A program made the translations under genes and the position numbers. 39,207 bases of DNA from Bacteroidales bacterium (lineage in GTDB: Bacteria > Bacteroidota > Bacteroidia > Bacteroidales > UBA932), in contig JAFUWZ010000033.1 in assembly GCA_017471045.1 (NCBI GenBank), positions 1 to 39,207 on the forward strand. Reading direction: 5' to 3'. Under the pieces are notes generated by a model that saw nothing but the letters and a program-made list of their open reading frames with translations, was not told where the DNA came from and did no database searches. Positions 1-27,565 of the stretch are shown here, one piece after another (the stretch's first letter is position 1; each line of letters opens with the position of its first letter).

Positions 1-47
1 CCCAGTGTCAGGCATGCAAGCACCACAATTACGAATCGTTTTACCAT
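1..47 (-). CDS. 5' end of a leftward gene, signal peptide only (partial)
   Basis: Reading leftward from the ATG at 47, the visible peptide is MVKRFVIVVLACLTLG, a basic-then-hydrophobic stretch typical of an exported protein; the rest lies outside the window. Its first five codons (ATGGTAAAACGATTC) are identical to those of the divergent SusC-like gene at 502, and the hydrophobic core is also similar at the DNA level (TGCTTGCAT shared). A paralogous outer-membrane protein, perhaps another SusC-like receptor, is the natural guess, but only 15 codons are seen and the product cannot be identified. Confidence 0.6.
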   Translation of the reverse strand, partial: MVKRFVIVVLACLTL

Positions 48-49
48 AA
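33..49. repeat. Left arm of 17-bp perfect inverted repeat
   Basis: The 17 bases here (GAATCGTTTTACCATAA) are the exact reverse complement of 500-516. The arm covers the start codon and the first five codons of the leftward gene. Similarity continues into the coding side with mismatches, and stops on the intergenic side. Together with its partner it flanks a segment of about 450 bp. Confidence 0.75.
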
Positions 50-501
50 AAATTTAAGGTTAATGAAATATAGTGATAGGTTGTATATGTCGCCAATAAG
101 CGATTTGACGTTACTTAATCTGTTAGCTCTCTCTCTTTTCCTATTCTATTTAATATATGTACAAATTTCTCCAAAAAAAACGAAACGGCAAAACTATTTT
201 ACGTTTTGACACAAATTTACCTTTAAAAGATGCTGTTTTCATGCATATCGTTGCAAACGGCAGGGGGGAAATAAAACGATCGCTTCGCTAAAAATACCAT
301 TACTGGCCATCGAGACAAGATTATCTCGCAAATACTGCAATAAGTCTCTTTCAATCAGCGGAATAATAATATTTTCGATTTTCCGTAAAAGAATATTTAG
401 GGTCCGTCTGTATTCAAATAGGAAATTATTTAAGCTGATAACCAATAACTTAATGGCGACTTAAGTAACGCATCATTATATCTATTTTTTAAACTAATCT
501 T
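48..501. other. AT-rich divergent intergenic region
   Basis: This 454-bp AT-rich stretch separates two divergent genes and should hold both promoters. I see no convincing gene in it. On the minus strand TAAATTTG at 219-212 fits the Bacteroidota -7 box TAnnTTTG for the leftward gene, but no well-spaced -33 TTTG accompanies it. No good match for the rightward susC was found. The octamer AAACGGCA occurs twice (183-190 and 255-262) and an interrupted palindrome lies at 311-328. Confidence 0.5.
311..328. promoter_or_regulatory. Interrupted palindrome, possible operator
   Basis: The 18 bases CGAGACAAGATTATCTCG form an inverted repeat with seven of eight positions paired around a GA centre. It lies in the divergent intergenic region upstream of susC and could bind a dimeric regulator. 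This is inference from symmetry alone. Confidence 0.25.
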
Positions 502-516
502 ATGGTAAAACGATTC
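500..516. repeat. Right arm of 17-bp perfect inverted repeat
   Basis: TTATGGTAAAACGATTC here is the reverse complement of 33-49 and includes the start codon (502) and first codons of the SusC-like gene. Recombination between the two arms would flip the intergenic DNA while leaving both reading frames intact. Confidence 0.75.
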
Positions 517-3500
517 ATTTATGTGATGCTTGCATTCCTCATGATCGGAGTGCAGGCGTTCGCCCAGAATGTCGTGACCGGCAAGGTCGTCGATGACCAG
601 GGTGAACCGCTGATCGGCGTCGGTATCCAAGTCAAAGGGACCAACGCCGGTACGATGACTGACTTGGATGGCAATTATTCGCTCATTGCGAATCCCAACG
701 CCACCCTGGTCTTCTCCTACATCGGTTTCCTCAATCAGGAAGCCGCGGTCGGCAGCCGCAGAACGGTTAACGTCACGATGGCTCCGGACAATATGCTGCT
801 GGATGACGTCGTGGTGGTCGGTTACGGCACGGCTCGTAAGCGCGACGTTTCAGGAGCTATCGCAAGTGTCAATTATGGCAAGGATGCGAATGTCACTTCC
901 CTTCCCAACCCGAATGCCCTTGCGGCACTCTCGAGCAAGGTGGCCGGTTTCAATTACGCTCCCACGACCAGTGCAGCCGGAGACAACACGCAGACGATGA
1001 CGATCCGCGGTAAGAACTCTATTCCTTACGGCGCATCCATGTCCGCCAGTTCCGAAAGCGTCAACCAGCCGCTTCTCGTCATTGACGGAGTCCTCTCCTA
1101 TGGTTCCATCAACTCGATCAATACCGCTGACATTGAGAGCATTGACGTCTTGAAGGATGCTTCCGCCGCGGCCATCTACGGATCCCGTGCGGCAAACGGT
1201 GTCATCATCATCACCACAAAGAAAGGTGCCAGCGAAGCACCGATTGTTCGGATGAATGCCAGCGTCAGCCTGTCTGATTGGACCCGTATGCCAAAGATGG
1301 TTACCGACAAGGAAACCTTCCTCAAGAACCGCTTCTACTCCTATCAAGGTTCCGAGAGCAACACTTATTATGACAACAAACAATGGTCGGACTATGCGGA
1401 TCTCACTGCCGCAGCGAATGACGGATTGGTCACGGACGCACAGGTCGACGCATGGAGAGATGGACGCTGGGTCAACTGGCTTGATGAAATCTCACGCAAA
1501 GGCGTAGGTCAGAAATATGACGTCAGCGTCAGCGGTTCCTCTGAGCGGGTTAACTACTACGTCTCCGGTGACCACACCCGTCAACAGGGTATCCTCAAGG
1601 GCGACGACTACCAGAAGTCCGGAGCCATGGCAAAAATTGACTTCAGGATCACAGACTGGCTGACTGTCGGCACGAAAGCCAATTTCCTTGCTTCCAAGAG
1701 CTGGGGACAGCCGGCTAGTATCCGCTATGCGATGTGGTACAATCCGCTCTCCTATGTTTACGCTCGTCAGGAGGGATTTGAGAACTGGTACAACTCCGTT
1801 CCGGACGGTAGAAATACCAGCCCTTTCATTGGCACCGGAAAAAATGATTCTTATGCCTATACCGATCGCTCCTCCAGCAGCATGAACCTTAACGGTGTCG
1901 CGTACGCACAGATTGATTTCCCTTTCATTAAGGGTTTGAGCTACCGCGTCACTTTCCAGGGTCAACGCAATGCCGGCTACACAGACATATTCAACAACCC
2001 TGAGATGAATGTCAATACCGAGGTTATCACTGACATGCTGAACCCCGGCCGATACAACTCTACGAGCGCGGGTACCACCTCTTCCACCAACTATGATGCA
2101 TGGAACATTGACCAGATCCTCACCTACGGTCGGGATTTCGGCCGCAATCATTTCGACGTGATGTTGGGTTACACCCGTGAAGCGACCAACAGCAACTCCA
2201 TGGGTCTTGATTTTTCGGGATTTGACACACCGACCGGCCTCGGCGTCTACAACATCGAGACTGCCAATAATTATACGGACGTTTACCGCAACCGTACGCG
2301 TACCCAGTCCGTGGGTTATCTGGCCCGCGTCAATTACAACTACGCCAACAAATATTATCTGACCGGCAACTTCCGCCGTGATGGTTTCTCTGCCTTCGCT
2401 GACGGTCACAAATGGGGCAACTTCTTTGGCGCCAGCGCCGCCTGGGTCCTCAGTAACGAAGATTTCATCAAGGACGGAGGTTTCTTTGACTTCTTGAAGT
2501 TGCGTTTCTCATGGGGTCAGAACGGTTCCCGTAACATCTCCGCCGGCGCAACGCAAGCCTCGGTCGAGAAGAAAACCGACAACAGTGGAGCCAATACGAT
2601 GACTTGGCTGGGTGACCAGAGCACCTTGGGCATGACCCTCACTTCTTTGCCGAACCGCAGTCTGACCTGGGCTACCGTCGAGAAATTCGACCTCGGCCTG
2701 GATTTCGCCTTCCTGGACAGCCGCATCAACGGTAGCCTCGATCTGTATGCGGGCAACACCAAGAATATGCTCGTCAACCGTTCCGCTCCCTACATCTCCG
2801 GTTTCAATGACGTCGATGACAATGTCGGCCTCGTAACCAACAAAGGACTCGAACTCACGCTCAACACCGTAAACATCAATGGCAACGGGAATGACACTTT
2901 CCGTTGGGAGAGCAGCTTCGTGTTCGACATGAACCGCAACAAACTCGTTTCCCTCTTCGGTCCCGACTATAACGGTGATGAGCACGATGACGTCGCCAAT
3001 GCCATTTCCTATGGCCGTGAGGCTAACTATGTCCTGCTTGTCGGCCGTCCGATCGGCGCCGCTTACGATTACAAGCTTCTGGGGATTTTCGAAAGTCAGG
3101 ATGAGATCAATAACTATGTCGGCCCGAATGGGAAACCCATTATGCCGAATGCAAAACCCGGTGATCTCAAGTTTGCCGACCTGAGCGGTCCGGACGGTGT
3201 GCCGGATGGAGTGATTGACTCAGACGACCTCACTTTCCTCGGATCCCCCGATCCGCTCTTTACACTGAATTTCGGCAACACCCTCAGTTGGAAGAACTTC
3301 TCCCTGTACTTCAACTTCCGCTGGGCCCAGGGTGACAAAGAACACTTCATCTGGCTCGATCCGTACGCTTTCGGCACGACAATGACGGGTGGTGCACAGT
3401 TGGCCCGTGTGAAACCTTGGACGGAAGAGAATCATAGCACCGTGTTCCCGCGCTACGGATATAGCAATACATATGATTATCAGTTCTGGAACTCCCGTTC

Positions 3501-4203
3501 TTACTTGAAACTCAAGGATCTTGTCTTTTCTTACAATATCCCGGCCAGGGTCATTAACCCTATCGGACTTTCCAATGCCCGCGTTTACGTGGCGGGAACC
3601 GACCTGCTGACCATCTCCAATTGGTCCGGTATCGACCCTGAAAATGGAGGAACGATTGCCGCAGGTGCCGCATCCAGCCGTTTTGGTAGCAGCGGTGCTT
3701 ATAAGACTGTCACCTTTGGTGTGAACCTGACCTTCCTCGGAGCCAAGGTTAAAGCCAAGACCCCGACTCTCTATGCCCCTCAGGTGAAAGAAGTCATCAA
3801 GGAAATCGTGAAGGAAAAGATCGTTGAAAAGCCCGTCGAGAAAGTCGTCGAGAAGGTGGTTTACAAGGGCACCAATTTCGAGGGCATCTACGAGGACGAC
3901 CTCCTCTTCCTGATCGGCAAGTCCGAGCTTCGTCCGGACGAGGCTTTCAAGCTCGGCCGCATCTGCCAGATCCTGAAGGACAATCCTGACACCAAGATCG
4001 CCATCTCCGGCTACGCTGACAGCGGCACCGGCAACAGCGACATCAATATGACTCTCTCCCAGCAACGCGCCGCTGTCGTGGCCGACATGCTGAAGAACGC
4101 CGGCATCGCTGCCAGCCGTATCACCACCTCCGCCGCGGGTACCGACAAGGATGCTTCCGCATCTCCCGAGTCCAACCGCGTTGCTGTTTGCATTGTTAAA
4201 TAA
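502..4203 (+). CDS. SusC/RagA-family TonB-dependent receptor fused to a C-terminal OmpA domain
   Basis: This is an outer-membrane transporter that imports oligosaccharides using TonB energy, normally paired with a SusD lipoprotein. Visible order in 1233 residues: signal peptide 1-21 (cleavage after AFA), carboxypeptidase-regulatory-like domain about 24-95, TonB-box-like DDVVVVGYGT (101-110), plug with the SusC signature LLVIDGV ... IESIDVLKDASAAAIYGSRAANG, and a long beta-barrel ending near residue 1083 in an aromatic strand (FGVNLTF). After this normal SusC end comes a K/E/V-rich linker (about 1084-1125) and an OmpA-like domain (about 1126-1233). The domain keeps Asp1173 (GYAD), Arg1189 (LSQQRA) and a terminal NRV motif, the positions that bind the peptide stem of peptidoglycan in OmpA proteins. 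susD starts 16 bases after its stop. The SusC assignment is certain; the anchoring role of the extra domain is inferred. Confidence 0.95.
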   Translation: MVKRFIYVMLAFLMIGVQAFAQNVVTGKVVDDQGEPLIGVGIQVKGTNAGTMTDLDGNYSLIANPNATLVFSYIGFLNQEAAVGSRRTVNVTMAPDNMLLDDVVVVGYGTARKRDVSGAIASVNYGKDANVTSLPNPNALAALSSKVAGFNYAPTTSAAGDNTQTMTIRGKNSIPYGASMSASSESVNQPLLVIDGVLSYGSINSINTADIESIDVLKDASAAAIYGSRAANGVIIITTKKGASEAPIVRMNASVSLSDWTRMPKMVTDKETFLKNRFYSYQGSESNTYYDNKQWSDYADLTAAANDGLVTDAQVDAWRDGRWVNWLDEISRKGVGQKYDVSVSGSSERVNYYVSGDHTRQQGILKGDDYQKSGAMAKIDFRITDWLTVGTKANFLASKSWGQPASIRYAMWYNPLSYVYARQEGFENWYNSVPDGRNTSPFIGTGKNDSYAYTDRSSSSMNLNGVAYAQIDFPFIKGLSYRVTFQGQRNAGYTDIFNNPEMNVNTEVITDMLNPGRYNSTSAGTTSSTNYDAWNIDQILTYGRDFGRNHFDVMLGYTREATNSNSMGLDFSGFDTPTGLGVYNIETANNYTDVYRNRTRTQSVGYLARVNYNYANKYYLTGNFRRDGFSAFADGHKWGNFFGASAAWVLSNEDFIKDGGFFDFLKLRFSWGQNGSRNISAGATQASVEKKTDNSGANTMTWLGDQSTLGMTLTSLPNRSLTWATVEKFDLGLDFAFLDSRINGSLDLYAGNTKNMLVNRSAPYISGFNDVDDNVGLVTNKGLELTLNTVNINGNGNDTFRWESSFVFDMNRNKLVSLFGPDYNGDEHDDVANAISYGREANYVLLVGRPIGAAYDYKLLGIFESQDEINNYVGPNGKPIMPNAKPGDLKFADLSGPDGVPDGVIDSDDLTFLGSPDPLFTLNFGNTLSWKNFSLYFNFRWAQGDKEHFIWLDPYAFGTTMTGGAQLARVKPWTEENHSTVFPRYGYSNTYDYQFWNSRSYLKLKDLVFSYNIPARVINPIGLSNARVYVAGTDLLTISNWSGIDPENGGTIAAGAASSRFGSSGAYKTVTFGVNLTFLGAKVKAKTPTLYAPQVKEVIKEIVKEKIVEKPVEKVVEKVVYKGTNFEGIYEDDLLFLIGKSELRPDEAFKLGRICQILKDNPDTKIAISGYADSGTGNSDINMTLSQQRAAVVADMLKNAGIAASRITTSAAGTDKDASASPESNRVAVCIVK

Positions 4204-4219: not shown

Positions 4220-6265
4220 ATGAAAAAGTATATATTTATTTTATGTGCACTTGTCCTTGCCATTTCTTGCAATGACAACTTGTTCCTGGAAGAGCACACC
4301 TATGTTGATGATACCAACAGCTTTTTCCAGAACCAGTCCTCTATCGAAATCTCGTTGGCATCTTGCTACTCCGAAGTTCAATACATGACCTTTGGTAATA
4401 TCCGTGGCGGATCTGAGCACAACTGGATGTTGATGGGACTGGGACTTGACACCTTTACTTCCACCAACGGTAATCTTCAGTTCACCAACTGGCCTACCCT
4501 GAAGGATGACAGCGGATATGCCCGCCACTATGGGGAATATATGTACAAGCTTGTCAACCGTGCCAATGCGACCATTGACATGATTGACGAAAACGAGGAC
4601 ATCGAATACTCCGACGACCAGATCAAAACCACCCTCCGCGCAGAAGCAGTATTCATGCGTGCATGGGCTTACCGGGTCATCGCCGGTATGTTTGGCGCTG
4701 CCGTGTACAACGAGCATATGACCCAAGAGGCCCGCTACGATTACGAGATGCTGCCCCGACAGGAAGTTTGGGAGAAAGTGGCTGAGGACTTCAAATATGC
4801 AGAAGAGAACTTGCCCACGACGCCCCGTATGCTGGGAACAGTGACCAAGGCCGCCGCCGCCCATTATCTCGCAGAAACCTACCTCGCACTCGGCAAGTTT
4901 TCCGAGGCTGAGGCAGCTGCCACTCGTGTCATCGGTGGAAGTGACGGTAATTATCACCTGATGACGACCCGTTTCGGAAACCGTAAAGATGAAGGTCACG
5001 ACCGTTACGGCAATTCCCTCGAGGCGCCTAAGGGTGCATATTGGGATTTGTTCCGCTCTTCTGCGACTTCATCCGGCACCGAAGCTGCCGACTCCAACCC
5101 GAATGACCCTGATAACAAAGAAGCCATCTGGGTTGCTCAGATCGACTATGCTCCAGGTGTCGACAGTTGGCCTCTGGGAGGTTCCGGTGACTCCTGGTTC
5201 CGTATGCATCTCCCGATTATCGAATCCGTTTGGGCTCCTTGGATCCCGATGGGTGGCAAGAATGGTACCCGGGCAAACAAGGACGGAGAGAAATTCTATA
5301 TCTTCACCGCCGACGCCGTTTGCTTCCCTGAAGGGACAGATAGCATTGATGTAGTCGGTGCCGGCAAACCTGCGGATGATATTCCCGAAGCTCAAGGACG
5401 CTGGCTCTCCTACAATCTTTCGACTCGTATTGACTCTCTGGCCTGCCGTACGCAGGGCAACGGTGCAGCAACCAGCCTCGGTTTCTATGGCGTTGATTAC
5501 ATCACCCGTCCCTACGGGCATCCTCTGGGTTCTTACTGGGATGATCCGAATGATATCCGCGGAAACGAGATTATGATCCAGCGTGACTACTTCACACCCT
5601 CCGGGAAGAGATGGTCCCAGGTCCGGCAGCAGATCGCAGACCGGATTGCCGCACACCCCGGAGACAATGCGTATGAGCTGACCGTCGCCGATACGATCAA
5701 TATTACGCCTCGTTTCTGGAAGTTCTCCGATGACAAGCATCCCTTCACCAAGGATAATGTCAACTGCATCTATGACTGTGACTGGTATATGATCCGTATT
5801 GCTGAGACTTACCTGCTCCGTGCTGAAGCTTATCTCGCACAAGGCAACAAGCAGAAGGCTGCTGATGACATCAACGTTATCCGCCGTCGTGCCGGTGCCA
5901 AGGACTGCTCCGCTTCTGATATCGATATCGATTATATCCTGGACGAGCGTGCCCGCGAACTCTTCGCCGAAGAGCACCGTTGGATCACCCTCAGCCGCCT
6001 GTCTTGCAACCCGAACGCAACTTATGTCCTGGATTGTTATCCGACACAGGATGCCCAGACATCCAACACATTCTATGAGCGTACCCGCAAGTATGGCTTT
6101 GGCTATGAAAACGAAGACCGGGGTCGGGAGGCTTATACGAATCCGAAGGACGGAAAGACCTATCACTATCCCAATGTCGCCCCGTACAACTACGTGCTTC
6201 CTATCCCGATCCAGATCATCCAGTCCAACAAGGACAGGAAGATCGATCAGAATTACGGATATTGA
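4220..6265 (+). CDS. SusD/RagB-family glycan-binding lipoprotein
   Basis: This is the surface lipoprotein partner of the SusC-like receptor, expected to act as the lid that captures glycan. The start at 4220 gives MKKYIFILCALVLAISC, a lipoprotein signal peptide with the acylated Cys at residue 17, and follows a purine-rich AAAGGGGAAAG stretch; an upstream ATG in frame at 4151 lies inside susC and is rejected. The 681-residue protein has the usual SusD features: N-terminal helical TPR-like part with the RAEAVFMRAWAYR helix, a later MIRIAETYLLRAEAYLAQGN helix, DERARELFAEEHRW, and a C-terminal YVLPIPIQIIQSN ... QNYGY ending. It is longer than many SusDs (500-600). It is in an operon with the gene before it and is followed by a strong terminator. 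The substrate cannot be read from sequence. Confidence 0.95.
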   Translation: MKKYIFILCALVLAISCNDNLFLEEHTYVDDTNSFFQNQSSIEISLASCYSEVQYMTFGNIRGGSEHNWMLMGLGLDTFTSTNGNLQFTNWPTLKDDSGYARHYGEYMYKLVNRANATIDMIDENEDIEYSDDQIKTTLRAEAVFMRAWAYRVIAGMFGAAVYNEHMTQEARYDYEMLPRQEVWEKVAEDFKYAEENLPTTPRMLGTVTKAAAAHYLAETYLALGKFSEAEAAATRVIGGSDGNYHLMTTRFGNRKDEGHDRYGNSLEAPKGAYWDLFRSSATSSGTEAADSNPNDPDNKEAIWVAQIDYAPGVDSWPLGGSGDSWFRMHLPIIESVWAPWIPMGGKNGTRANKDGEKFYIFTADAVCFPEGTDSIDVVGAGKPADDIPEAQGRWLSYNLSTRIDSLACRTQGNGAATSLGFYGVDYITRPYGHPLGSYWDDPNDIRGNEIMIQRDYFTPSGKRWSQVRQQIADRIAAHPGDNAYELTVADTINITPRFWKFSDDKHPFTKDNVNCIYDCDWYMIRIAETYLLRAEAYLAQGNKQKAADDINVIRRRAGAKDCSASDIDIDYILDERARELFAEEHRWITLSRLSCNPNATYVLDCYPTQDAQTSNTFYERTRKYGFGYENEDRGREAYTNPKDGKTYHYPNVAPYNYVLPIPIQIIQSNKDRKIDQNYGY

Positions 6266-6878: not shown

Positions 6879-9413
6879 ATGATCAGACACCTCCGTTCTC
6901 TTTCCCTCCTGGCCGCTTTGCTGCTCGGCACCGGCCTGGGCACCCGGGCCAATCCCGTCCACAAAGTCAAGACCGCAGACGGCACCACCGTCGGCATCGA
7001 AGCCTGCGCCGACGGCATCTACCGCATCCATGTCTCACCCCGGAAGGACTTCTCCGAATCCCTGATGGAGCGTTACGGCCTCCTCCGGACGGACTGGGCC
7101 CCTGCCGGTGAGAAGATCAGCGACGGGAAGCGGACCTGGACCCTCACCACGCCGGGCCACGTCCTCAGCCTGGACAAGAAAAGCGGTACCTTCAGCCTGC
7201 GCCGCAGCGACGGGACCGTACTGGTCCGGGCCCTCGATTATATCCCGGGCAAGGATGCCTCCGTCAGTGCCCTTTCGAAGGTCATCAACGACGCCTACGC
7301 CGACCTGCACGTAGCCAAGAACAGCGGCATCATCGGCGATGAGAACAACCGCAAGGAAGGCATCGACAACAGCGAGAGCGGCGACCCGCTCAAAGCCAGC
7401 GTCCTGCGCTTCACCCTCGCGGGAGACGAGCGCTTCTACGGAGGCGGCAGCACCAGCCGCGACCACATCCAGCACCGCGGCGAACTGCTCCGGATGTGGA
7501 CGACCTACCAGCACACGGAGATCCCGATGCCCTTCATGATGAGTTCCCGCGGCTGGGCGGTATACAACAACACGACACGCAAGAACTTCTTCGACGTCGG
7601 CCATACAGACAAGGACCGTTTCAACATCTACAACACCAGCGACGAGGCCGACTTCTATCTGCTCGCCGCCCCTTCGATGAAGGACCTGCTGGGCCTCTAC
7701 ACCCGGGTGACCGGCGGCAACTACGTGCTGCCAAAATGGGCCTACGGCCTCTGCTTCGGTCCCAACATGCGCGAGGACCAGTGGGACATCCTGCACGACG
7801 CGGTCCTCTTCCGCCAGCTGGGCGTGCCCTGCGACATATTCTGGCTGGAGCCGCAATGGATGGAGAAACGTTACGACTTCTCCACCGCGAAGCGCTGGAA
7901 CTTCGAAAAATTCTCCCCGGAGCCCTACTGGCTGCAGGACAAATTTCCCAAGCAGCTGTACAACCGTCTCTTCATCGGCAAGTTGCGCAACATGGGCTAC
8001 CACCTCGGCCTCTGGCTCTGCGAAGAATACGACCTCAGCATCACGGAAGAGGACGAGATCGCAGCGCGTCTCGGCAAGCCCCAGTCCGGGCAGGAACACT
8101 GGATGGACCACCTCAAGACCTTCCTGGACTACGGTGTGGAAGGTTTCAAACTGGATCCGGCCCGCACCATCGACGAGCATCCCGACGCCAGCTACTACAA
8201 CGGACGGACCGACAAGGAGATGCATAACCTCAACCAGGTCCTGCTCCAAAAGCAGATGAACTTGATGACCCGCGAGCACCTCGGCCGCCGCATCTGGTAC
8301 CACTACACGGCCGGCTGGGCGGGCACCCAGCACTGGGGCGCCTCCACCAGCGGCGACAACGGCGGCGGCAAGACGGCCCTCTTCGACCAGCTCAACCTGG
8401 GCAACAGCGCCTACATGAACCTCTCCTGCGACGTGATGAGCGTTCCGAAGGAGCTGGAGATGCAAGGGCTGCACTTCGGTCTCTTTCTGCCCTGGGTCCA
8501 GATCAACAGCTGGTTCTCCATGATGCAGCCCTTCTACTACGGTGAGCCGGAGCAGAGCATTTACCGCGACTATGTCCAGATCCGCTACGCACTGATGCCG
8601 TATATCTATTCCGCGGCCCTGGAAGGCGGACTGAGCGGCCTGCCCATCGTGCGATCGATGCCGCTGATGTTCCCCGAAGACCGCCAGGTGGATGACATGT
8701 GCTACCAGTACATGTTCGGGGACAATCTGTGCGTGGGCATCTTCAGCGACGAGATCTACCTCCCCGCCGGCACCTGGATCGATGCCTGGACCGGCGAACG
8801 CGTGGTCAGCAAGGGCGAAACCCTGCAGCGCAGCTACCCAGACAACCGGGCCGGCCTCCTCTTCATCCGGGACGGTGCGATCCTGCCCTGCATAGAGGCG
8901 CCCCAGAGCCTCAGCACCCATCCTTTCGACTGGCTGATCGTGAAGGTCTTCCCGTCCGGCGACTCTTCCTACCTGCTCTATGAGGACGACGGGGACAGCT
9001 ACGGCTACGAAAGCGGCCGGGTCGCCTCCACCCTGCTGGAAAGCCACGCCGAGGCCGGCGAGGTCCGTCTCCTCGTCCACCCGACGGAGGGCAGCTACGA
9101 GGGGATGCCTGCGACACGGGACTACGTATGGGAGATCGCCCTGCAGAAAGCACCCGCATCGGTCAGCGTCGGCGGCCGGAAAAGCGAAGCCTGGACCTTC
9201 GGGAACGGGATCCTGCGTATCGCCGTCGAAGAGGCTCCGGTCAGCGAGCCCCTGGAGCTGAAGATCACCCTCGGTACGGATAGCGCAACCCTCTCCGGAG
9301 ACCAGTTCCAGAGCTGCCTGACCCATGGCGGCTGGGGCTCCCCCACCCGCACCCGCCGCAGCACCCGCAGCTCCGACACAGCCTCCCAACTCAACGAAGA
9401 AGTCCTCTACTAA
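6879..9413 (+). CDS. Secreted glycoside hydrolase family 31 (alpha-glucosidase/alpha-xylosidase type)
   Basis: This is a retaining alpha-glycosidase, exported by a signal peptide (about residues 1-24, ending near TRAN). In 844 residues the N-terminal galactose-mutarotase-like beta-sandwich (about 25-285) is followed by a TIM barrel. The likely nucleophile is Asp426 in GFKLDPA and the likely acid/base Asp493 in STSGDN; TSRGWAVYNN, WLEPQWME and the FYGGGSTSRDH loop also fit GH31. A C-terminal beta-sandwich contains YLLYEDDGDSYGYE. The substrate (alpha-glucoside or alpha-xyloside, as in xyloglucan) is not decidable here. It ends one base before the ROK kinase start, so the two are co-translated. 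The last about 28 residues are Arg/Ser/Thr-rich and look unlike a folded GH31 end. Confidence 0.9.
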   Translation: MIRHLRSLSLLAALLLGTGLGTRANPVHKVKTADGTTVGIEACADGIYRIHVSPRKDFSESLMERYGLLRTDWAPAGEKISDGKRTWTLTTPGHVLSLDKKSGTFSLRRSDGTVLVRALDYIPGKDASVSALSKVINDAYADLHVAKNSGIIGDENNRKEGIDNSESGDPLKASVLRFTLAGDERFYGGGSTSRDHIQHRGELLRMWTTYQHTEIPMPFMMSSRGWAVYNNTTRKNFFDVGHTDKDRFNIYNTSDEADFYLLAAPSMKDLLGLYTRVTGGNYVLPKWAYGLCFGPNMREDQWDILHDAVLFRQLGVPCDIFWLEPQWMEKRYDFSTAKRWNFEKFSPEPYWLQDKFPKQLYNRLFIGKLRNMGYHLGLWLCEEYDLSITEEDEIAARLGKPQSGQEHWMDHLKTFLDYGVEGFKLDPARTIDEHPDASYYNGRTDKEMHNLNQVLLQKQMNLMTREHLGRRIWYHYTAGWAGTQHWGASTSGDNGGGKTALFDQLNLGNSAYMNLSCDVMSVPKELEMQGLHFGLFLPWVQINSWFSMMQPFYYGEPEQSIYRDYVQIRYALMPYIYSAALEGGLSGLPIVRSMPLMFPEDRQVDDMCYQYMFGDNLCVGIFSDEIYLPAGTWIDAWTGERVVSKGETLQRSYPDNRAGLLFIRDGAILPCIEAPQSLSTHPFDWLIVKVFPSGDSSYLLYEDDGDSYGYESGRVASTLLESHAEAGEVRLLVHPTEGSYEGMPATRDYVWEIALQKAPASVSVGGRKSEAWTFGNGILRIAVEEAPVSEPLELKITLGTDSATLSGDQFQSCLTHGGWGSPTRTRRSTRSSDTASQLNEEVLY

Positions 9414-9414
9414 T

Positions 9415-10377
9415 ATGAAACAGAACCTGCTCGGCATCGATATCGGCGGCACAAAATGTGCCGTCATCTATGGCATTGACACCGACGGCGTCCTGGAGAT
9501 CGCGGACAAAGTCCGCTTTGAAACCACCGGCGTGGACGAGACCCTCACGCGCATCCTGTCGGAAGTGAAGGCGATGGCCGCCCGGCACGGACTTTCGGGC
9601 GCCAATACCCGGGCGGTCGGCATCTCCTGCGGCGGCCCGCTGGACAGCCGCCGCGGCATCATCCAATCCCCTCCCAACCTTCCCGGCTGGGACGACATCC
9701 CGATCGTCCGGCTCGTCGAGGAAGCGACCGGCATCCCGGCCGCCCTGCAGAATGACGCCAACGCCTGCGCGCTGGCCGAGTGGAAGTACGGAGCCGGCCG
9801 CGACAGCCGCAACATGGTTTTCCTGACCTTCGGGACAGGGATGGGCGCCGGCCTCATCCTGGACGGGAAACTCTATGCCGGGACCAACGACAATGCCGGC
9901 GAGGCCGGACACATCCGCCTGAGCGATTTCGGCCCCGTGGGTTACGGCAAGGCCGGATCGTTCGAAGGATTCGCCAGCGGCGGCGGGATCGCCCAGCTGG
10001 CCCAGTCCGCCGTCAAGGAACAGATGATGATGGGACGGAACGTAGCCTGGTGCCCGGACGGGGACCTCTCCGCCATCACGGCCAAAACTGTCGCCGAGGC
10101 CGCTGCAGCAGGGGATGCGCTGGCCATCGAGGTCTATAAGACGAGCGCCACCTATCTGGGCAAGGCACTCTCCATCCTGATCGATGTCCTCAATCCGGAG
10201 GTGATCGTCATCGGGAGCATTTTCGTGCGGGCCGAGGCATTGATCCGTCCCTTCATGCAGGCGGCCATCGACCGGGAAGCCCTGCCGGCCGCCGCGGCCG
10301 TCTGCCAGGTCAAGCCGGCCGAGCTCGGCGAGCAAATCGGCGACTTCGCTTCGCTCTCCATCGCCGCCTCCTGTTAG
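9415..10377 (+). CDS. ROK-family sugar kinase lacking the zinc-binding cysteines
   Basis: This is a cytoplasmic kinase of the ROK family (glucokinase, fructokinase, N-acetyl-hexosamine kinases), 320 residues. Seen: phosphate-1 motif GIDIGGTKCAV (7-17), GISCGGPLD, catalytic Asp114 in QNDANA, phosphate-2 motif TFGTGMGAGL (138-147) and EAGHIRL (163-169). Most ROK enzymes follow this His with a CxCGxxGCxE zinc site; here the stretch is FGPVGYGKAGSFEGFASG, with no cysteine. It starts one base after the GH31 stop, so it probably phosphorylates the hexose that GH31 releases. The reading frame stays open upstream to 9325, but that part overlaps GH31 and ATG 9415 fits the family N-terminus. Confidence 0.9.
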   Translation: MKQNLLGIDIGGTKCAVIYGIDTDGVLEIADKVRFETTGVDETLTRILSEVKAMAARHGLSGANTRAVGISCGGPLDSRRGIIQSPPNLPGWDDIPIVRLVEEATGIPAALQNDANACALAEWKYGAGRDSRNMVFLTFGTGMGAGLILDGKLYAGTNDNAGEAGHIRLSDFGPVGYGKAGSFEGFASGGGIAQLAQSAVKEQMMMGRNVAWCPDGDLSAITAKTVAEAAAAGDALAIEVYKTSATYLGKALSILIDVLNPEVIVIGSIFVRAEALIRPFMQAAIDREALPAAAAVCQVKPAELGEQIGDFASLSIAASC

Positions 10378-10515: not shown

Positions 10516-13071
10516 CTAGTTATCCGCCACGGTCTTTCCCACCTTTTCCAGGCGGATATCCGCGCTGGAGGCGCCGACCATCACGGTAGGGAGGCCATCG
10601 GGGACGATGAAACCCTTGCGCGATTCGCTCCAATAGCGTAGGTCCTCCCGGCGGAGCGGGACCGTGACGCGGCGGCTCTCCCCTCTTTTGAGATGCACCC
10701 GGCGGAAGCCCTTGAGTTCCTTCAGCGGCGCGACGCCCTCATACTCAGGCAGCTGCACATACACCTGCGCCACCTCATCGTCGTCGTAGCGGCCGATATT
10801 CTTCAGCGTAAAGGACACCTCCACCGTCCCGCCGCCATCCTCAACCCGCAGGTCCGAGTACTGGAACTGAGTATAACTCAAGCCATAACCAAACGGGTAC
10901 AGCACCGGCCCGTCAAAATACTTGTAGGTCCGTTTCGTGATGTCATAATCATCGAACGGCGGCAGGTCATCCAGGCTGTTGTACCAGGTCAGCGGCAGGC
11001 GCCCGCCCGGATTGTACCGGCCCAGCAGGACCTCGGCAACCGCCGTACCGCCCTCCTGTCCGGGATACCAGGCCTGCACGATAGCCTGCAGGTTCTTGTC
11101 TTCCCACTGCAGCGACAGCGGACTGCCCGCCACCAGCACCAGGATTGTATTCGGGTTGACCCGATACAACTCCTGCAGGAATTCCTGCTGATCCTCCGGC
11201 AGGGTCAACTTGTCCCGGTCCTTTCCCTCCCGCTCGATGCTCTTGTTGATGCCCATCACGGCCACCACGGCATCGCAACGCCGCGCCAGTTCTCCGGCCT
11301 TGCCATACAGGGCGATCCGCTCCTGCTTCCCGACCGCAGGCAGACGCCAGCTCAGCCGGGCGACGGCATAGTCCCGGACATTATAATAATCGATTTCCAG
11401 CTCATAGGCATGACCCACCTCCAGCCGCACGGAGACCGTATCGGAACTGACATTGTGACTGTTCCAATGGTCGATCAGCGGCTTTCCATCCAGGCGCAGG
11501 CGCGCCCCGTCGTCCGAGGTAAGCTGGAGGACGTATTCGCCGGAAACCGGCGGCACCAGCCGGCCCGCCCAGCGCACGCTCAGCGGCGAATCGGGTATGA
11601 AGGGATCCGGAGCCTGGTTGGCCGGTTCGAAATTGATCCAGGGATCCGTACGCACCGACGGTTCTCCTTTCAGCTCTGTCCCGGGATAGTATTCGGCGCG
11701 AAGGCCGTCGGGGAAATACTCCGGCGCGATGGTCTCCATCCCGTCCACCGCAGAACGCCAGGGCGCATACTCCACCCGCACATGGGGACCGGCGGCAGCC
11801 TGGATCCCTTCCAGGATAGACACGGGCGCCGTCGCAGGCGTACCGCTGTAGTCGCCGAACTCGCATCGGCCGGCATTGATGCCGACCACCGCCAACGAAC
11901 GGATCCTGCGCAGCGGAAGGGTCCGATGCTCGTTCTTGAGTAGGACCACCGCTTCCCGCGCCGCCTGCAGGGCCAGGTCACGGTGCTTCTCGGAGCCGAT
12001 CACATCCGGACTGATCCGGATGTAGGGATTGTTCCGGCCCGAATCGAACAGACCCAGCCGCATCCGCGCCGTCAGCACATGCCGGGCTGCCCGGTCGATA
12101 TCCGCTTCCGAGACCAGACCCTTGGCGAAAGCATCCTTCAAGGGCTGGATGAAGATATCGTCTCCGCATTCGAGATCCAACCCCGCCTGCAGGGCCAGGG
12201 CAGCGGCCGTCTCGGGGTATTGCACATAATGATGACCCTTCATCAGCAGAGATACGGCGCCGCAGTCCGAAACGACGTATCCATCGAATCCCCAGTCCCC
12301 GCGCAGGACCTGGGTCAGCAGCCAGGGATTGGCCGTACAGGGGATGTTGTTGATCGCCGGATAGGCCGACATGACCGAGGCAGCGTGACCGCGGCGGACC
12401 AGGGCCTCGAAGGCCGGCAGATAATACTCCCGCAACTGCTTCTCGCTGACCGCGACCTTGCACTCGAAGCGGTTATGCTCCTCGTTGTTGACCGCGAAAT
12501 GCTTGGGCGTAGAGACCACTTTCAGGTAACGCGGATCATCCCCTTGCAGCCCCTGCACGAAAGCCGTGCCGATCTCACCGGAGAGGAAGGGATCCTCGCC
12601 ATAGGTTTCGGGCGTGCGGCCCCAGCGTGGATCCCGGGCCATGTTGACGGTCGGAGACCAGAAAGTCAGCAGGTCGCTGAATTGCTGCGTCTGGCCACGC
12701 CCCTGATCCAACTCGCTCCAACGGCCCCGCGCTTCGTCGGAAATGGCCGTGGAGACCTCCCGGATCAGGTCCGGATCCCAGGTCGCCGCCAGGCCGATCG
12801 CCTGCGGGAACACGGTGAAACGTCCCGGACGGACGACGCCGTGGAGCGCCTCATTGCCATGATAGTATTTGTCGAATCCCAGCCGGTCATTGGCTGGCGA
12901 AGAGGCCCGGAGCAGATCGATCTTTTCCTCCACGCTCATCCGTCCCAGCAGATCCTCCACCCGCTCCGGAATAGGAGCCTCTTCATCTTGATAGACCGGG
13001 GTCTGAGCCAGGACCGGAATCGACAGCATCACTGAAAGCATCAGGCAAAAGCAGAAAAAACGGGGTCTCAT
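10516..13071 (-). CDS. Secreted GH3 beta-glycosidase with inserted PA14 domain
   Basis: This is an exo-acting retaining beta-glycosidase (beta-glucosidase/beta-xylosidase class). The 851-residue product starts at ATG 13071, which gives the signal peptide MRPRFFCFCLMLSVMLSIPV (cleaved near LAQ); longer in-frame starts lack a leader and overlap the promoter. Domains: GH3 barrel about 30-345 with nucleophile Asp269 in VVSDCGAV and substrate-loop motifs KHFAVNNEE and NMARDPRWGR; GH3 C-terminal alpha/beta sandwich from about 360, interrupted by a PA14 domain (about 453-577, with YVLQLTSDDGARLRLDGKPL), resuming with the acid/base region SIEREGKDRD (611-620); and a C-terminal FnIII-like domain. PA14 in GH3 enzymes shapes the active site for oligosaccharides. 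It is a single gene, convergent with ROK and divergent from the helicase. Confidence 0.93.
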   Translation of the reverse strand: MRPRFFCFCLMLSVMLSIPVLAQTPVYQDEEAPIPERVEDLLGRMSVEEKIDLLRASSPANDRLGFDKYYHGNEALHGVVRPGRFTVFPQAIGLAATWDPDLIREVSTAISDEARGRWSELDQGRGQTQQFSDLLTFWSPTVNMARDPRWGRTPETYGEDPFLSGEIGTAFVQGLQGDDPRYLKVVSTPKHFAVNNEEHNRFECKVAVSEKQLREYYLPAFEALVRRGHAASVMSAYPAINNIPCTANPWLLTQVLRGDWGFDGYVVSDCGAVSLLMKGHHYVQYPETAAALALQAGLDLECGDDIFIQPLKDAFAKGLVSEADIDRAARHVLTARMRLGLFDSGRNNPYIRISPDVIGSEKHRDLALQAAREAVVLLKNEHRTLPLRRIRSLAVVGINAGRCEFGDYSGTPATAPVSILEGIQAAAGPHVRVEYAPWRSAVDGMETIAPEYFPDGLRAEYYPGTELKGEPSVRTDPWINFEPANQAPDPFIPDSPLSVRWAGRLVPPVSGEYVLQLTSDDGARLRLDGKPLIDHWNSHNVSSDTVSVRLEVGHAYELEIDYYNVRDYAVARLSWRLPAVGKQERIALYGKAGELARRCDAVVAVMGINKSIEREGKDRDKLTLPEDQQEFLQELYRVNPNTILVLVAGSPLSLQWEDKNLQAIVQAWYPGQEGGTAVAEVLLGRYNPGGRLPLTWYNSLDDLPPFDDYDITKRTYKYFDGPVLYPFGYGLSYTQFQYSDLRVEDGGGTVEVSFTLKNIGRYDDDEVAQVYVQLPEYEGVAPLKELKGFRRVHLKRGESRRVTVPLRREDLRYWSESRKGFIVPDGLPTVMVGASSADIRLEKVGKTVADN

Positions 13072-13093
13072 ATCCAATGTATAGTATTCCATC

Positions 13094-13102
13094 CGAAAGA
13101 TA
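13094..13102 (-). promoter_or_regulatory. Possible -7 element of the GH3 gene
   Basis: TATCTTTCG on the minus strand, 22 bases upstream of the chosen ATG, resembles the promoter box before the BASS transporter (28486). No clear -33 element is seen. If real it excludes the longer GH3 starts. Confidence 0.3.
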
Positions 13103-13316
13103 CGGAAAAACGCCGAAGATTTGACCAGCCGCCGCGCAAGATGATCCGTCTTTTGTCCCATCAGACGCAAAAAGGCCCCGACTCGCGCCCGGCAGGTCAC
13201 CGCATGTCCCATTGGGCGCAGCGGCAATGTCTATTTCACGGCAAGACAACCACGGGGTGTACGGATCGACAGCATATCGTCGCGGAACCGGCCTGAGCTC
13301 TGATGAGGCGGAACGC

Positions 13317-18597: not shown

Positions 18598-20055
18598 CTA
18601 TTTCTTCACGTCGGAGCAGTTGCGGGCGACGAAGATCTTGGTCTTCATCTTGGGCGCGGTCGCCGTGATGCGGCTGAAGGACGAGCGATGCACGTCATCC
18701 AGCACGATGGCCGGACGATAATCCTTTGCCGCCGCCGTCAGAGTCACATTGTCCAGCGAGACCCCCTCCGCATGACGGATGAAGAAGCCCCACGCGGGCA
18801 GTTCCTTGAACTGGGAGAACTCCGGATAAGCTGTCGGCATCTCCGGCACCTGATCCAGTTCGTGCGTCCCGACCTTGGCAAAGGCGGGATCGCCCCCGCC
18901 CGGGAAACGGATCTCCACATTCTCGATCGTCACGTTGCGTACCGGCTGGCCTTCCAGGCCCACGATGCCGCAAGGCAGCACGTTGCGCGGCTGGTCCTCC
19001 AGGGTCGGGCCTTCGTAATCCACGCCGTAGTCCGGCTTGTCCACCGGGACTTCCGCATAGACGTTGCGGATGGTGATGTTCTCCATCCGGCTCTTGTTCT
19101 CGCCCCGACGCTGGCCCACGACCAGGTAGATGGGATTGGCCGTGTTGTAGGACTTCAGTCCGTCCACCAGGATGTTTTCGGCGAAGCCGCCGTCTACGCT
19201 CTGGATCGTAATCGCGCTGCGGAAGGTGTCATACACGACGTTGTCCAGGATCTGGATGTTGCGGAATCCGCCGACACCGAAGGTCCCGAACTTGATGCCG
19301 CTGGCGCTGGACGTGATCGTATTGTGCCGCACGACCACGTTGTCGTTGCAGACATCCTTGTGGTGGGATTTCAGGCAGATGCCGTCGTCCGAGGCATTGA
19401 CGAAGCAGTTCTGGATCACCGCATCCTTGCAATCCACGATATCCAGGCCGTCGTTATTCCAAAAGGCCCGGCTGTCCACGGTCACGCCGTCGATCAGCAG
19501 GTTCTCGATCCGGTCCGTCGTACAGGTCCAGCAGGAGGAATTGCGGATGTTGATGCCCTTGAGCGTCACGTTCTTGCTCTGGCACAGGTACAGCAGATGC
19601 GGCCGGTCGGCGGGACGCCCGAGCTTGAAGATGTCCTTGATCACCCCGACGGCGATCTGCCCGAGGAAGTTGTTGGCCAGCTCGCGGCCCTGTCCGTCGA
19701 TGACGCCCAGGCCGACGATCCCGATGTTTTCGGCACCGTTGGAGATGACGAGCCCGAAAGCGTCCCCCTTCTTGTAATAATCATACGGATTGGTCGATCC
19801 GACCAGCACGGCGCCTTCGCCGAGTTCGATCGTGACATTGTCCTTCAATTCGATCGTTCCGGTCAGGTAGCGGCCCACCTTGAAAATCAGCTTGCCGCCG
19901 CCCTCCGCGCTGATATGGTCGATCGCCCGCTGGATGGAGGTGGTGTTGAGCGTAGTCCCGTTGGACTTGATGCCGAACAGGGACGCATAATAATCCTTTG
20001 CCGAGGCCGCGCAGGCCAGGGACAGGCATATCAATGAGAGAAGAATCTTTTTCAT
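18598..20055 (-). CDS. GH28 polygalacturonase-like enzyme, last gene of the pectin operon
   Basis: This is a secreted right-handed beta-helix hydrolase expected to act on galacturonic-acid linkages in pectin or rhamnogalacturonan. The 485-residue product has a signal peptide (1-19, CAASA) and a Pectate_lyase_3-like N-terminal part (FGIKSNGTTLNTTSIQRAID). GH28 motifs: WNNDGLDIVDC with Asp202, NASDDGICLKS with Asp223-Asp224. The usual GHG motif with its conserved His is replaced by SGIKFGT (252-258), and RIK by RSA. The three catalytic Asp positions are kept, so it is probably active. Nine bases separate it from the short GH28-like gene upstream. It resembles the GH28 at 20593 over its whole length, which points to old duplication. 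Confidence 0.88.
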   Translation of the reverse strand: MKKILLSLICLSLACAASAKDYYASLFGIKSNGTTLNTTSIQRAIDHISAEGGGKLIFKVGRYLTGTIELKDNVTIELGEGAVLVGSTNPYDYYKKGDAFGLVISNGAENIGIVGLGVIDGQGRELANNFLGQIAVGVIKDIFKLGRPADRPHLLYLCQSKNVTLKGINIRNSSCWTCTTDRIENLLIDGVTVDSRAFWNNDGLDIVDCKDAVIQNCFVNASDDGICLKSHHKDVCNDNVVVRHNTITSSASGIKFGTFGVGGFRNIQILDNVVYDTFRSAITIQSVDGGFAENILVDGLKSYNTANPIYLVVGQRRGENKSRMENITIRNVYAEVPVDKPDYGVDYEGPTLEDQPRNVLPCGIVGLEGQPVRNVTIENVEIRFPGGGDPAFAKVGTHELDQVPEMPTAYPEFSQFKELPAWGFFIRHAEGVSLDNVTLTAAAKDYRPAIVLDDVHRSSFSRITATAPKMKTKIFVARNCSDVKK

Positions 20056-20064
20056 GACGCGCGA

Positions 20065-20589
20065 TCAATTATAACGGGTGGACAAGGCCGTATCCTGCAG
20101 CTTCTTGATCTCGCTGCCCATCACGGCGTTTGTACAGTTCTTGAAAGAATACAAGGTCGGAAGGGGCGTATCGGAGGGCAGATAACCCCGGTCTTTCTGC
20201 GCTTGCAGGCTTGCCTTGAGCGCTGTGCTGCGACCTTCGATCACACCTTTCCCGACGACCGAAACATTCTCGGCCCCGTCGGCCCAGACCAGGGCCGGAG
20301 CGCCCTTGTAGTCATAAATATTGGTGGACCCGACCAGGACGGCCGCCTCGGCCAGGTGGAGGGTCACGTTGCTTTTGAGCTGGATGGCGCCGGTCAAATA
20401 GCGGCCCACATAAAAATAAAGGGTGCCGCCACCGTGGGCGCTGATGTAATCGATGGCGCGCTGGATGGAGCCGGTGTTGTCCGTGACCCCGTCGCTCTTG
20501 ACACCCCATACGGTCGCCGTCTGGTCCGTCTGTGCGAAGCAGGAAAGGACGGCAAAGAAAACTACGATGGAAAGGATGAGCTTTTTCAT
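20065..20589 (-). CDS. Short GH28-like protein: N-terminal beta-helix part only, no catalytic motifs
   Basis: The product is 174 residues: signal peptide (MKKLILSIVVFFAVLSCFAQ), then a region like the first 170-180 residues of both neighbouring GH28 proteins (WGVKSDGVTDNTGSIQRAID, GRYLTGAIQLKSNVTLHLAE, AVLVGSTNIYDY, GKGVIEG). It ends at TLYSFKNCTNAVMGSEIKKL ..., the strand that in the full-length paralogs comes just before the catalytic coils, so NND, DD and the later motifs are absent. It is either a remnant of a truncated paralog or a small binding or accessory protein. Intact frame, own signal peptide and tight operon spacing (3 and 9 bases) argue that it is still made. Confidence 0.75.
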   Translation of the reverse strand: MKKLILSIVVFFAVLSCFAQTDQTATVWGVKSDGVTDNTGSIQRAIDYISAHGGGTLYFYVGRYLTGAIQLKSNVTLHLAEAAVLVGSTNIYDYKGAPALVWADGAENVSVVGKGVIEGRSTALKASLQAQKDRGYLPSDTPLPTLYSFKNCTNAVMGSEIKKLQDTALSTRYN

Positions 20590-20592
20590 GGC

Positions 20593-26271: not shown

Positions 26272-26273
26272 GG

Positions 26274-27530: not shown

Positions 27531-27557
27531 ATTTAAACGGATGGTTTTGACAAAAAA

Positions 27558-27565
27558 CAAAGATA
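27558..27565 (-). promoter_or_regulatory. -7 box for the phosphatase-pectinase operon
   Basis: TATCTTTG on the minus strand exactly fits TAnnTTTG and lies 27 bases upstream of the first phosphatase ATG. A matching -33 TTTG at the right distance was not seen. It is back-to-back with the plus-strand box at 27580. Confidence 0.5.

Follow-up and report, generated by a model that had tools for sequence, protein, structure and literature searches.

The window that we analysed, a stretch of 39,207 nucleotides from a Bacteroidales bacterium, carries a gene in which a complete SusC receptor is continued, within one open frame, by a linker and an OmpA-like domain. We consider it probable that the product is a SusD-paired glycan importer bearing a wall-anchoring OmpA tail, and that this tail constitutes a mobile cassette within the present family of Bacteroidales. 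Those parts of the explanation that the sequences themselves back are the fusion, with its complete domains and conserved residues, the SusD partner, the recurrence of the arrangement, and the exchange of the tail in the clearest pairs of genes. The outer membranes of gut Bacteroidota are rich in SusC receptors, and the genes considered here offer a clear example of a C-terminal domain appearing on numerous receptors of one large family. At the level of titles and the openings of abstracts, we found no description of a SusC-OmpA fusion in the open-licence literature.

Architecture and predicted fold of the fusion

The frame runs from ATG to TAA without interruption (Table 1). Its match to the SusC/RagA profile TIGR04056 reached 766.9 bits against a curated cut-off of 368.25 and covered profile positions 3-981 of 981, while that to PF00691 reached 59.4 bits against a gathering cut-off of 27.2, over positions 1-90 of 98; the PF13715 and PF07715 matches both exceeded their curated cut-offs as well. 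The Pal model TIGR02802, for its part, gave 37.2 bits, under its cut-off of 125.35, which score places the protein outside the Pal lipoproteins; nor does the protein belong with the Bacteroidales OmpA porins, as a SusC receptor precedes the linker in place of the small porin barrel. The first-pass annotation had proposed a barrel ending near residue 1083 and followed by a K/E/V-rich linker, and both details agree with what we found: 27 of the 49 linker residues are Lys, Glu, or Val (10, 8, and 9, respectively), and the last strand ends at about residue 1079, four residues earlier, in a full-length model of low confidence (mean pLDDT 59) that served only to position that strand and the linker.

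Table 1. Features of the window, with positions counted from its first nucleotide.
Feature	Position	Strand	Remarks
Start of a divergent SusC gene	1..141	-	identical to both ends of contig C3
SusC-OmpA fusion gene	502..4203	+	1233 aa plus stop; frame and profile matches
Putative signal peptide	502-567	+	judged by eye
CarboxypepD_reg-like extension, N-terminal	574..816	+	PF13715, aa 25-105
SusC/RagA receptor, complete	574..3735	+	TIGR04056, aa 25-1078
TonB-dependent receptor plug	877..1203	+	PF07715, aa 126-234
K/E/V-rich linker	3751..3897	+	aa 1084-1132; modelled without regular structure, low confidence
Cassette shared with the SusC gene of contig C3	3800..4203	+	92-97% DNA identity per 100 bases
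OmpA-like domain	3898..4200	+	aa 1133-1233; PF00691 at 1135-1223
Asp1173 codon	4018..4020	+	motif equivalent of the diaminopimelate-contacting Asp in OmpA domains
Arg1189 codon	4066..4068	+	motif equivalent of the diaminopimelate-contacting Arg
SusD-like lipoprotein partner	4220..6265	+	PF07980, PF14322
GH31 glycoside hydrolase	6879..9413	+	likely same locus
ROK-family protein	9325..10377	+	
GH3 with PA14 domain	10516..13227	-	

The AlphaFold2 model of residues 1075-1233 adopted an OmpA fold, with most ten-residue blocks of the domain at pLDDT 87-97 and two lower, at 78 and 62. The Foldseek matches of this model included the peptide-bound 3td5 (TM 0.78, normalized by target) and 9uu2 (0.84), along with the TolB/Pal complexes 2hqs and 4r40. 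Asp271 and Arg286 of Acinetobacter baumannii OmpA are reported to contact diaminopimelate (PMC5974059). The corresponding pair that the annotation had pointed out, Asp1173 and Arg1189—an equivalence set by motif and profile alignment, not by the superposition of side chains—was intact in the translation, and an Asp and an Arg were conserved at those positions in all 38 fusion tails. Within the common GHTD motif a Tyr replaces the His (GYAD), as it does in most of the porins that we aligned.

The protein thus described resembles several known systems in part. With the SusC/RagA receptors (TIGR04056; solved homologue 8aa4) it shares the N-terminal extension, the plug, the barrel, and a SusD gene downstream, but the family profile stops at the barrel, at residue 1078 here, whereas the fusion has 155 residues more. 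The OmpA/OprF porins and the Pal lipoproteins, Pal being a lipoprotein without a barrel, are alike in the fold of the domain and in the region of the Asp/Arg motif. PorE and other multidomain OmpA proteins of the Bacteroidota likewise end in an OmpA domain, that of PorE (6top) being a close fold match, but contain no SusC receptor. Not every long frame with an OmpA domain is a SusC gene, as five control frames from other families (L154-L157 and L159) contained no such receptor; a sixth long frame from the same genus (L158) gave no match to the tail profile.

The closest likeness in the linker and domain is to the Bacteroidales OmpA-type porins, mostly of 375-431 aa and with the solved relative 9uu2; the aligned tail was 35-46% identical to 20 of these. 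When linker plus domain served as the query, 66 of the best 80 loci of the named collection belonged to frames that the SusC profile did not match, 61 of them 375-431 aa long, and many of the frames of that size had linkers of the VEKIVEKPVEK type, which resemblance to porin linkers had been anticipated from the window alone. The further suggestion that the fusion arose through recombination with a porin gene fared less well: in the domain tree, which is weakly resolved and covers 14 of the 66 named loci that are not fusions, the tails cluster apart from the porins included. That tree thus gives no support to direct descent from Prevotella-type porins.

Occurrence of the fusion among genomes and orthologues

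The source genome, assembled in 73 contigs, contains eight distinct SusC-OmpA genes among its 35 distinct SusC genes; 9 of its 13 OmpA-domain sites are SusC tails, 8 of those distinct. Also present are a porin-type gene of 404 aa and, where a contig ends, a portion of a second one, and the idea that the fusions have replaced the ordinary OmpA porins is unsupported, the genome having retained these. In the genus sample we found 37 distinct fusions in at least 15 of 121 species genomes, and no fusion among the matches listed for the other 106; three species of another genus of the same family have one each. Outside the family, in searches for tails resembling the present ones, the matches listed for 295 genomes of the order and 395 of the phylum included no fusion. 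The remaining 14 of the best 80 named loci were fusions, several of which overlap genomes of the genus sample. The fusion that had been read from the window is therefore real, a complete receptor, linker, and PF00691 domain recurring in one frame across genomes, whereas the notion of a single, unique event is ruled out by the eight genes of this genome and the recurrence in the genus.

The tail is not a constant companion of its barrel. Of nine barrel orthologues other than the gene itself, at 56-77% identity, eight end at the barrel, with tail-less receptors reaching 75-77%; such orthologues point to a receptor for which the tail is dispensable. The ninth (G012.C41; barrel 68%, tail 52% identical to those of the window gene) carries a tail of the other of two linker classes, which are VEK-rich and Ala-rich, and an orthologue from a reindeer MAG (74% identity) has one of the same class as the window gene. 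A finding that close relatives all ended at the barrel, with the OmpA segment part of another locus, had been named as fatal to the original reading; this pattern held for the eight, but not for the G012 and reindeer orthologues.

Evidence for exchange of the tail between SusC genes

In a parsimony reconstruction on a tree of 71 receptors, tail presence changes 13 times, 8 of these changes being forced by starred branches, while the tails themselves need only one or two origins. In two pairs of receptors from the same genome, moreover, a block of 92-97% DNA identity extends sharply from the linker to the stop codon, on barrels whose proteins are 60% and 30% identical; between the window gene (C17) and that of contig C3 the DNA identity falls to about 60% before the block and 67% just after the stop. 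Since near-identical blocks with sharp limits thus sit on divergent barrels, and the gains and losses of the tail are many but its origins few, the tail, judged from the sequences, acts at least partly as a cassette that SusC genes exchange with one another, and in the clearest pairs is such a cassette. No rule that tails follow barrels holds, as one pair combined 94% identity in the barrel with 68% in the tail and another 34% with 87%.

The similarity of the tails might instead reflect strong selection after one ancient spread, without any continuing exchange, which explanation we regard as unlikely. In its favour, 16 of 20 chosen pairs showed no significant difference between tail and barrel at fourfold sites; divergence was lower in the tail in only four at p<0.05, two of which survive correction for 20 tests, so that slow evolution accounts for part of the similarity. 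In the window gene and C3, however, 5 of 35 fourfold sites differ in the domain versus 131 of 230 in the barrel (p=2e-6), and in C24 and C22 of G081 7 of 34 in the domain versus 69 of 124 in the barrel (p=4e-4). The tail of G121.C2, whose barrel is 94% identical to that of G037.C16, clusters with those of G121.C5, G121.C11, and G037.C3 (96% SH-aLRT), and tails borne by different barrels resemble each other more closely within genomes than between them (73.6 vs. 66.2%; permutation p=0.0003, with related genomes non-independent). Continuing exchange, which these comparisons favour, would have moved the linker-domain unit between different SusC genes of this Bacteroidales family, and gene conversion may keep the cassettes alike in some genomes.

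Role of the tail

The most likely role of the tail is the tethering of the receptor to peptidoglycan. The receptor would end, periplasmically of its barrel, in a flexible linker followed by an OmpA-type domain predicted to bind the diaminopimelate of peptidoglycan; paired with the SusD protein of the adjacent gene, it would import a glycan, and the tail would anchor the receptor-SusD complex to the cell wall. The benefit might lie in fastening the outer membrane to the wall and in limiting drift of the receptor or its loss in vesicles. The first-pass annotation had named, as possible effects of a tether, a transporter fixed in place and a close pairing of TonB with the receptor.

Three other accounts may be weighed against tethering. 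That the tail, though of OmpA fold, has a mainly non-anchoring role—as a periplasmic protein-protein module for a receptor dimer, TonB, or an assembly factor, or as an aid to barrel biogenesis—appears quite unlikely: OmpA-like domains can have other partners, as with the TolB/Pal complexes among the fold matches, and the difference between the linker classes may mean that spacing outweighs sequence, but the diaminopimelate-contact pair is conserved in all 38 tails, and among stand-alone proteins the closest relatives are porin-sized frames of OmpA type. Less probable still is a neutral passenger, derived from recombination with a porin gene and kept because harmless. The tail-less orthologues and the patchy presence within the genus would agree with this explanation, but over the last 133 codons the window gene and C3 differ by 20 synonymous codons and 1 nonsynonymous, a ratio indicating purifying selection; the conserved residue pair, the eight copies in one genome, and the several pairs whose tails are more conserved than their barrels or downstream DNA likewise argue against it. 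An artefact of assembly or binning that joined SusC to a porin, conceivable in a genome of 73 contigs, has a negligible probability: chance and assembly error are excluded because the fusions recur in independent assemblies, 37 distinct ones in 15 genomes, with the downstream lipoprotein gene in its expected place, an aligned lipobox Cys being common to all 40 downstream proteins examined and PF07980 matched by 32 of them, so that at least 32 are SusD-like.

Receptors that bear the presumed wall anchor and receptors that lack it occur side by side in one genome, and also on orthologous barrels up to 77% identical. With this natural set it becomes testable whether TonB-dependent transport works in a receptor tethered to peptidoglycan, and by what means these bacteria keep their outer membrane attached to the wall. 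A broader version, which we put forward tentatively and think doubtful, is that the cassette is a swappable anchor spreading among receptors of different specificity, with gene conversion keeping it alike within a genome, and that SusC receptors thereby become a main class of tether between outer membrane and wall, as the 9 SusC tails among the 13 OmpA-domain sites of this genome would suggest; the set of nutrient-uptake loci being expressed would in that case govern the anchoring of the envelope.

Some minor observations concern the surroundings of the gene. A search of the intergenic region for a Bacteroides-type promoter, with the motif taken from general knowledge, gave two -7-like matches on the minus strand, neither convincing. 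The contig of the G082 orthologue breaks off upstream of the gene, which had seemed to favour an inversion hot spot; we discounted this support, as at least five other contigs carry the sequence found at the break. Contig C3, for its part, bears a sister SusC-OmpA gene, and the source bacterium is akin to bacteria found in goats, deer, and buffalo.

The fusion gene and its product

As the first-pass annotation had claimed, the gene comprises a single unbroken frame leading from a SusC-type receptor through a Lys/Glu/Val-rich linker into a complete OmpA domain; the linker has 49 residues, and both profiles are matched above their cut-offs. The solved structure closest to the receptor was the SusC homologue 8aa4 (E 3e-113), and that closest to the tail—the linker plus the OmpA domain—was 9uu2 (E 2e-12). 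Since the SusD-like gene and, beyond it, a GH31, then a ROK-family, and then, on the opposite strand, a GH3 gene adjoin the fusion gene, the latter likely belongs to a glycan-use locus.

Features of the window and of one comparison locus
Feature	Position	Strand	Remarks
SusC-OmpA fusion gene	502-4203	+	uninterrupted frame, 1233 residues
CarboxypepD_reg-like extension	residues 25-105		Pfam, above curated cut-off
Plug	residues 126-234		Pfam, above curated cut-off
Complete SusC/RagA receptor	residues 25-1078		NCBIfam, above curated cut-off, profile end reached
OmpA domain	residues 1135-1223		above curated cut-off
SusD-like lipoprotein gene	4220-6265		starts 16 bases 3' of fusion gene
GH28, short frame, second GH28, GH106 alpha-L-rhamnosidase, in a row	18598-25002	-	
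Two overlapping frames, both matching histidine acid phosphatase	25006-27560	-	PF00328; neighbouring copies
Inverted repeat arms in genome G043	L175 17436-18306 and 18609-19479		

A structure model of residues 1075–1233, for which the alignment input consisted of 35 tails and porin ends, adopted the OmpA fold, the ten-residue blocks of the domain having mostly pLDDT values of 87–97 (two were at 78 and 62) and the linker values near 50. Foldseek returned 111 PDB hits with E ≤ 0.001; among these were OprF, Pal, PorE and the A. baumannii OmpA with either glycine (3td3) or a peptidoglycan pentapeptide (3td5; rmsd 1.9, TM 0.78 by target). By its fold, the tail qualifies as a genuine OmpA domain. 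Asp1173 and Arg1189, whose retention had been noticed beforehand, were indeed in place at the positions of the diaminopimelate-contacting pair of OmpA domains, which pair was present in all 38 tails compared; in A. baumannii OmpA, PMC5974059 ascribes those roles to Asp271 and Arg286. Over the last 133 codons, the window gene and its sister fusion on contig C3 of the same genome show 20 synonymous codon differences against a single nonsynonymous one; relative to the gene on contig C70, the counts are 44 and 19, respectively.

Occurrence of the fusion

The search for other SusC receptors with a C-terminal OmpA domain yielded such receptors both in the window's own genome and in its genus. The OmpA domain occurs at 13 places in that genome (2.62 Mb, 73 contigs), nine of them within SusC receptor frames of 1174–1410 aa; because two of the nine, on contigs C49 and C62 (L050 and L051), are copies with one mismatch in 5382 bases, the distinct fusions number eight. 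Contig C62 (5.4 kb) duplicates part of C49, as either a strain variant or an assembly duplicate; without that copy, the places above the SusC cut-off fall from 36 to 35, of which eight bear the tail. With a profile (A1) built from those eight tails—suited to similar tails, so that fusions with quite different OmpA domains would escape it—fusions were found in at least 15 of 121 genus genomes, themselves a sample out of a larger group, amounting to at least 37 distinct genes once the C62 copy is discounted. Of the 37, contig ends truncate two (L142, L153), and a third (L149) is a 683-aa frame that lacks the first half of the receptor; a further tail (L133), whose contig ends before any receptor match, stands outside that number. 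The near-identical fusions L151 and L152, from genomes G074 and G079, carry an OmpA domain more divergent than those of the other fusions (103–104 bits).

Among 199 genomes of the family, three from another genus carry the fusion, one apiece. For the order (295 genomes, with up to 16 scored candidates each), no frame among the matches listed exceeded 771 aa except in the window's own genome, and for the phylum (395 genomes, with up to 12 each) that genome alone passed E 1e-20. Among the 80 loci listed from a second, named collection as most similar to linker plus domain, 14 were fusions; the other 66 lay in frames that did not match SusC, of which 61 had 375–431 aa. A ruminant source is given for seven of the 14 (goat abomasum in three, water buffalo rumen, roe deer rumen, reindeer and red deer); a further four belong to the RUG isolates, which are rumen genomes, and three have no host named.

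The proteins encoded immediately downstream of 40 tail loci (the 37 minus L142, plus L133 and the three from the other genus) all had an aligned lipobox Cys, with overlapping matches to PF07980 in 32, PF14322 in 32, PF12771 in 19 and PF12741 in three; therefore, the tailed receptors have retained a SusD-type partner.

Gain and putative exchange of the tail

The first-pass annotation had raised the possibility that close relatives all end at the barrel. Eight of nine orthologues from other genomes (56–77% identity) do so, as frames of 1074–1113 aa without an OmpA domain, but the ninth, in genome G012, bears the alternative tail class, in which the linker is rich in Ala (identity 68% in the barrel, 52% in the tail), and L190, an orthologue from a reindeer MAG (barrel 74%), has a tail of the window's VEK-rich class. 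The L190 and window tails may reflect one shared gain. In a tree of 71 receptors (39 tailed, 32 tail-less), where several long branches meet, the window receptor sat among tail-less orthologues and the tail state changed at least 13 times, eight of the changes being forced by starred branches. A tree of 109 OmpA domains (103 different, 102 columns) left many forks open, and some of its 49 fusion rows represent one gene drawn from both collections. In this tree, two changes, one of them forced, account for the fusion label, so that the cassette—the linker-domain unit apparently exchanged between SusC genes—may have originated once or twice.

The DNA of the window gene (contig C17) and of its C3 sister was about 60% identical over the compared barrel part, 92–97% per 100 bases across the final 400, and 67% for the 100 bases that follow the stop, the edges of the block lying within the linker and just 3' of the stop codon. 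A receptor pair in genome G081 had barrels 30% identical and 92–93% identity over the last 240 bases before the stop, which value dropped to 68% in the next 60 bases and to about 40% further out; a pair in G084 had a weaker block, of 72–82%. In four of 20 pairs of our own choosing, fourfold sites in residues common to both proteins were less diverged in the tail than in the barrel (p < 0.05), and two of the four survived correction: C17/C3 (5 of 35 sites different in the tail versus 131 of 230 in the barrel, p = 2e-6) and G081 C24/C22 (7 of 34 versus 69 of 124, p = 4e-4). The other 16 pairs exhibited no difference, so selective constraint, too, contributes to the similarity of the tails.

The reverse case was that of G037.C16 and G121.C2 (contigs C16 of G037 and C2 of G121), which share 94% of their barrel residues, 68% of their tail residues, and 98–99% of the DNA in the 200 bases 3' of the stop; the G121.C2 tail clustered with those of G121.C5, G121.C11 and G037.C3 (96% SH-aLRT), but fourfold divergence did not differ between tail and barrel (0.43 versus 0.46). 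Finally, among the 387 of 595 pairs that had the same linker class and barrels less than 45% identical, tails were more alike within a genome (73.6%, 27 pairs) than between genomes (66.2%, 360 pairs; permutation p = 0.0003), and likewise when the window's genome was left out (71.3% versus 64.8%).

Proposed working and neighbouring features

Since both the N- and the C-terminal ends of TonB-dependent barrels are periplasmic, the linker and OmpA domain would hang beneath the barrel at the cell wall, as in OmpA. While the receptor, together with SusD, imported the glycan, the tail would grip the diaminopimelate of the wall; we infer both this binding of peptidoglycan and its benefit to the cell. 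The existence of tail-less orthologues suggests that transport does not depend on the tail, which would be an accessory trait. The SusC receptor, the OmpA domain and the wall tether are already known singly and are combined here in one protein; apparently new are their fusion, the presence of eight such genes in a single genome and the putative spread of the tail as a cassette, none of which was described among the open-licence papers listed in our searches.

Contig C3 (L044; 9.9 kb), for its part, carries the sister SusC-OmpA, SusD, DUF6057 and PD40 genes and ends in inverted repeats (L044 1–202 and 9718–9919) that are 97% alike over 202 bases, each of which matches window 1–141 exactly; the left copy contains a SusC start that meets a stop after only 34 residues. 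The contig resembles the invertible on/off segments that PMC4747536 reports for SusC genes in B. fragilis. However, an assembly broken by the exact repeat alone would also give such ends, and a search for a second flank for the repeats found none. At the same locus in a relative, G043, the two 5' ends of a divergent SusC pair form an inverted repeat of 871 bases with 87% identity, which suggests that the paired genes exchange sequence.

Elsewhere in the window, the GH28 and GH106 genes likely constitute a rhamnogalacturonan-use cluster, of which one GH28 is perhaps split: the short separate frame (20065–20589) gave weak partial GH28-type matches, below all cut-offs.
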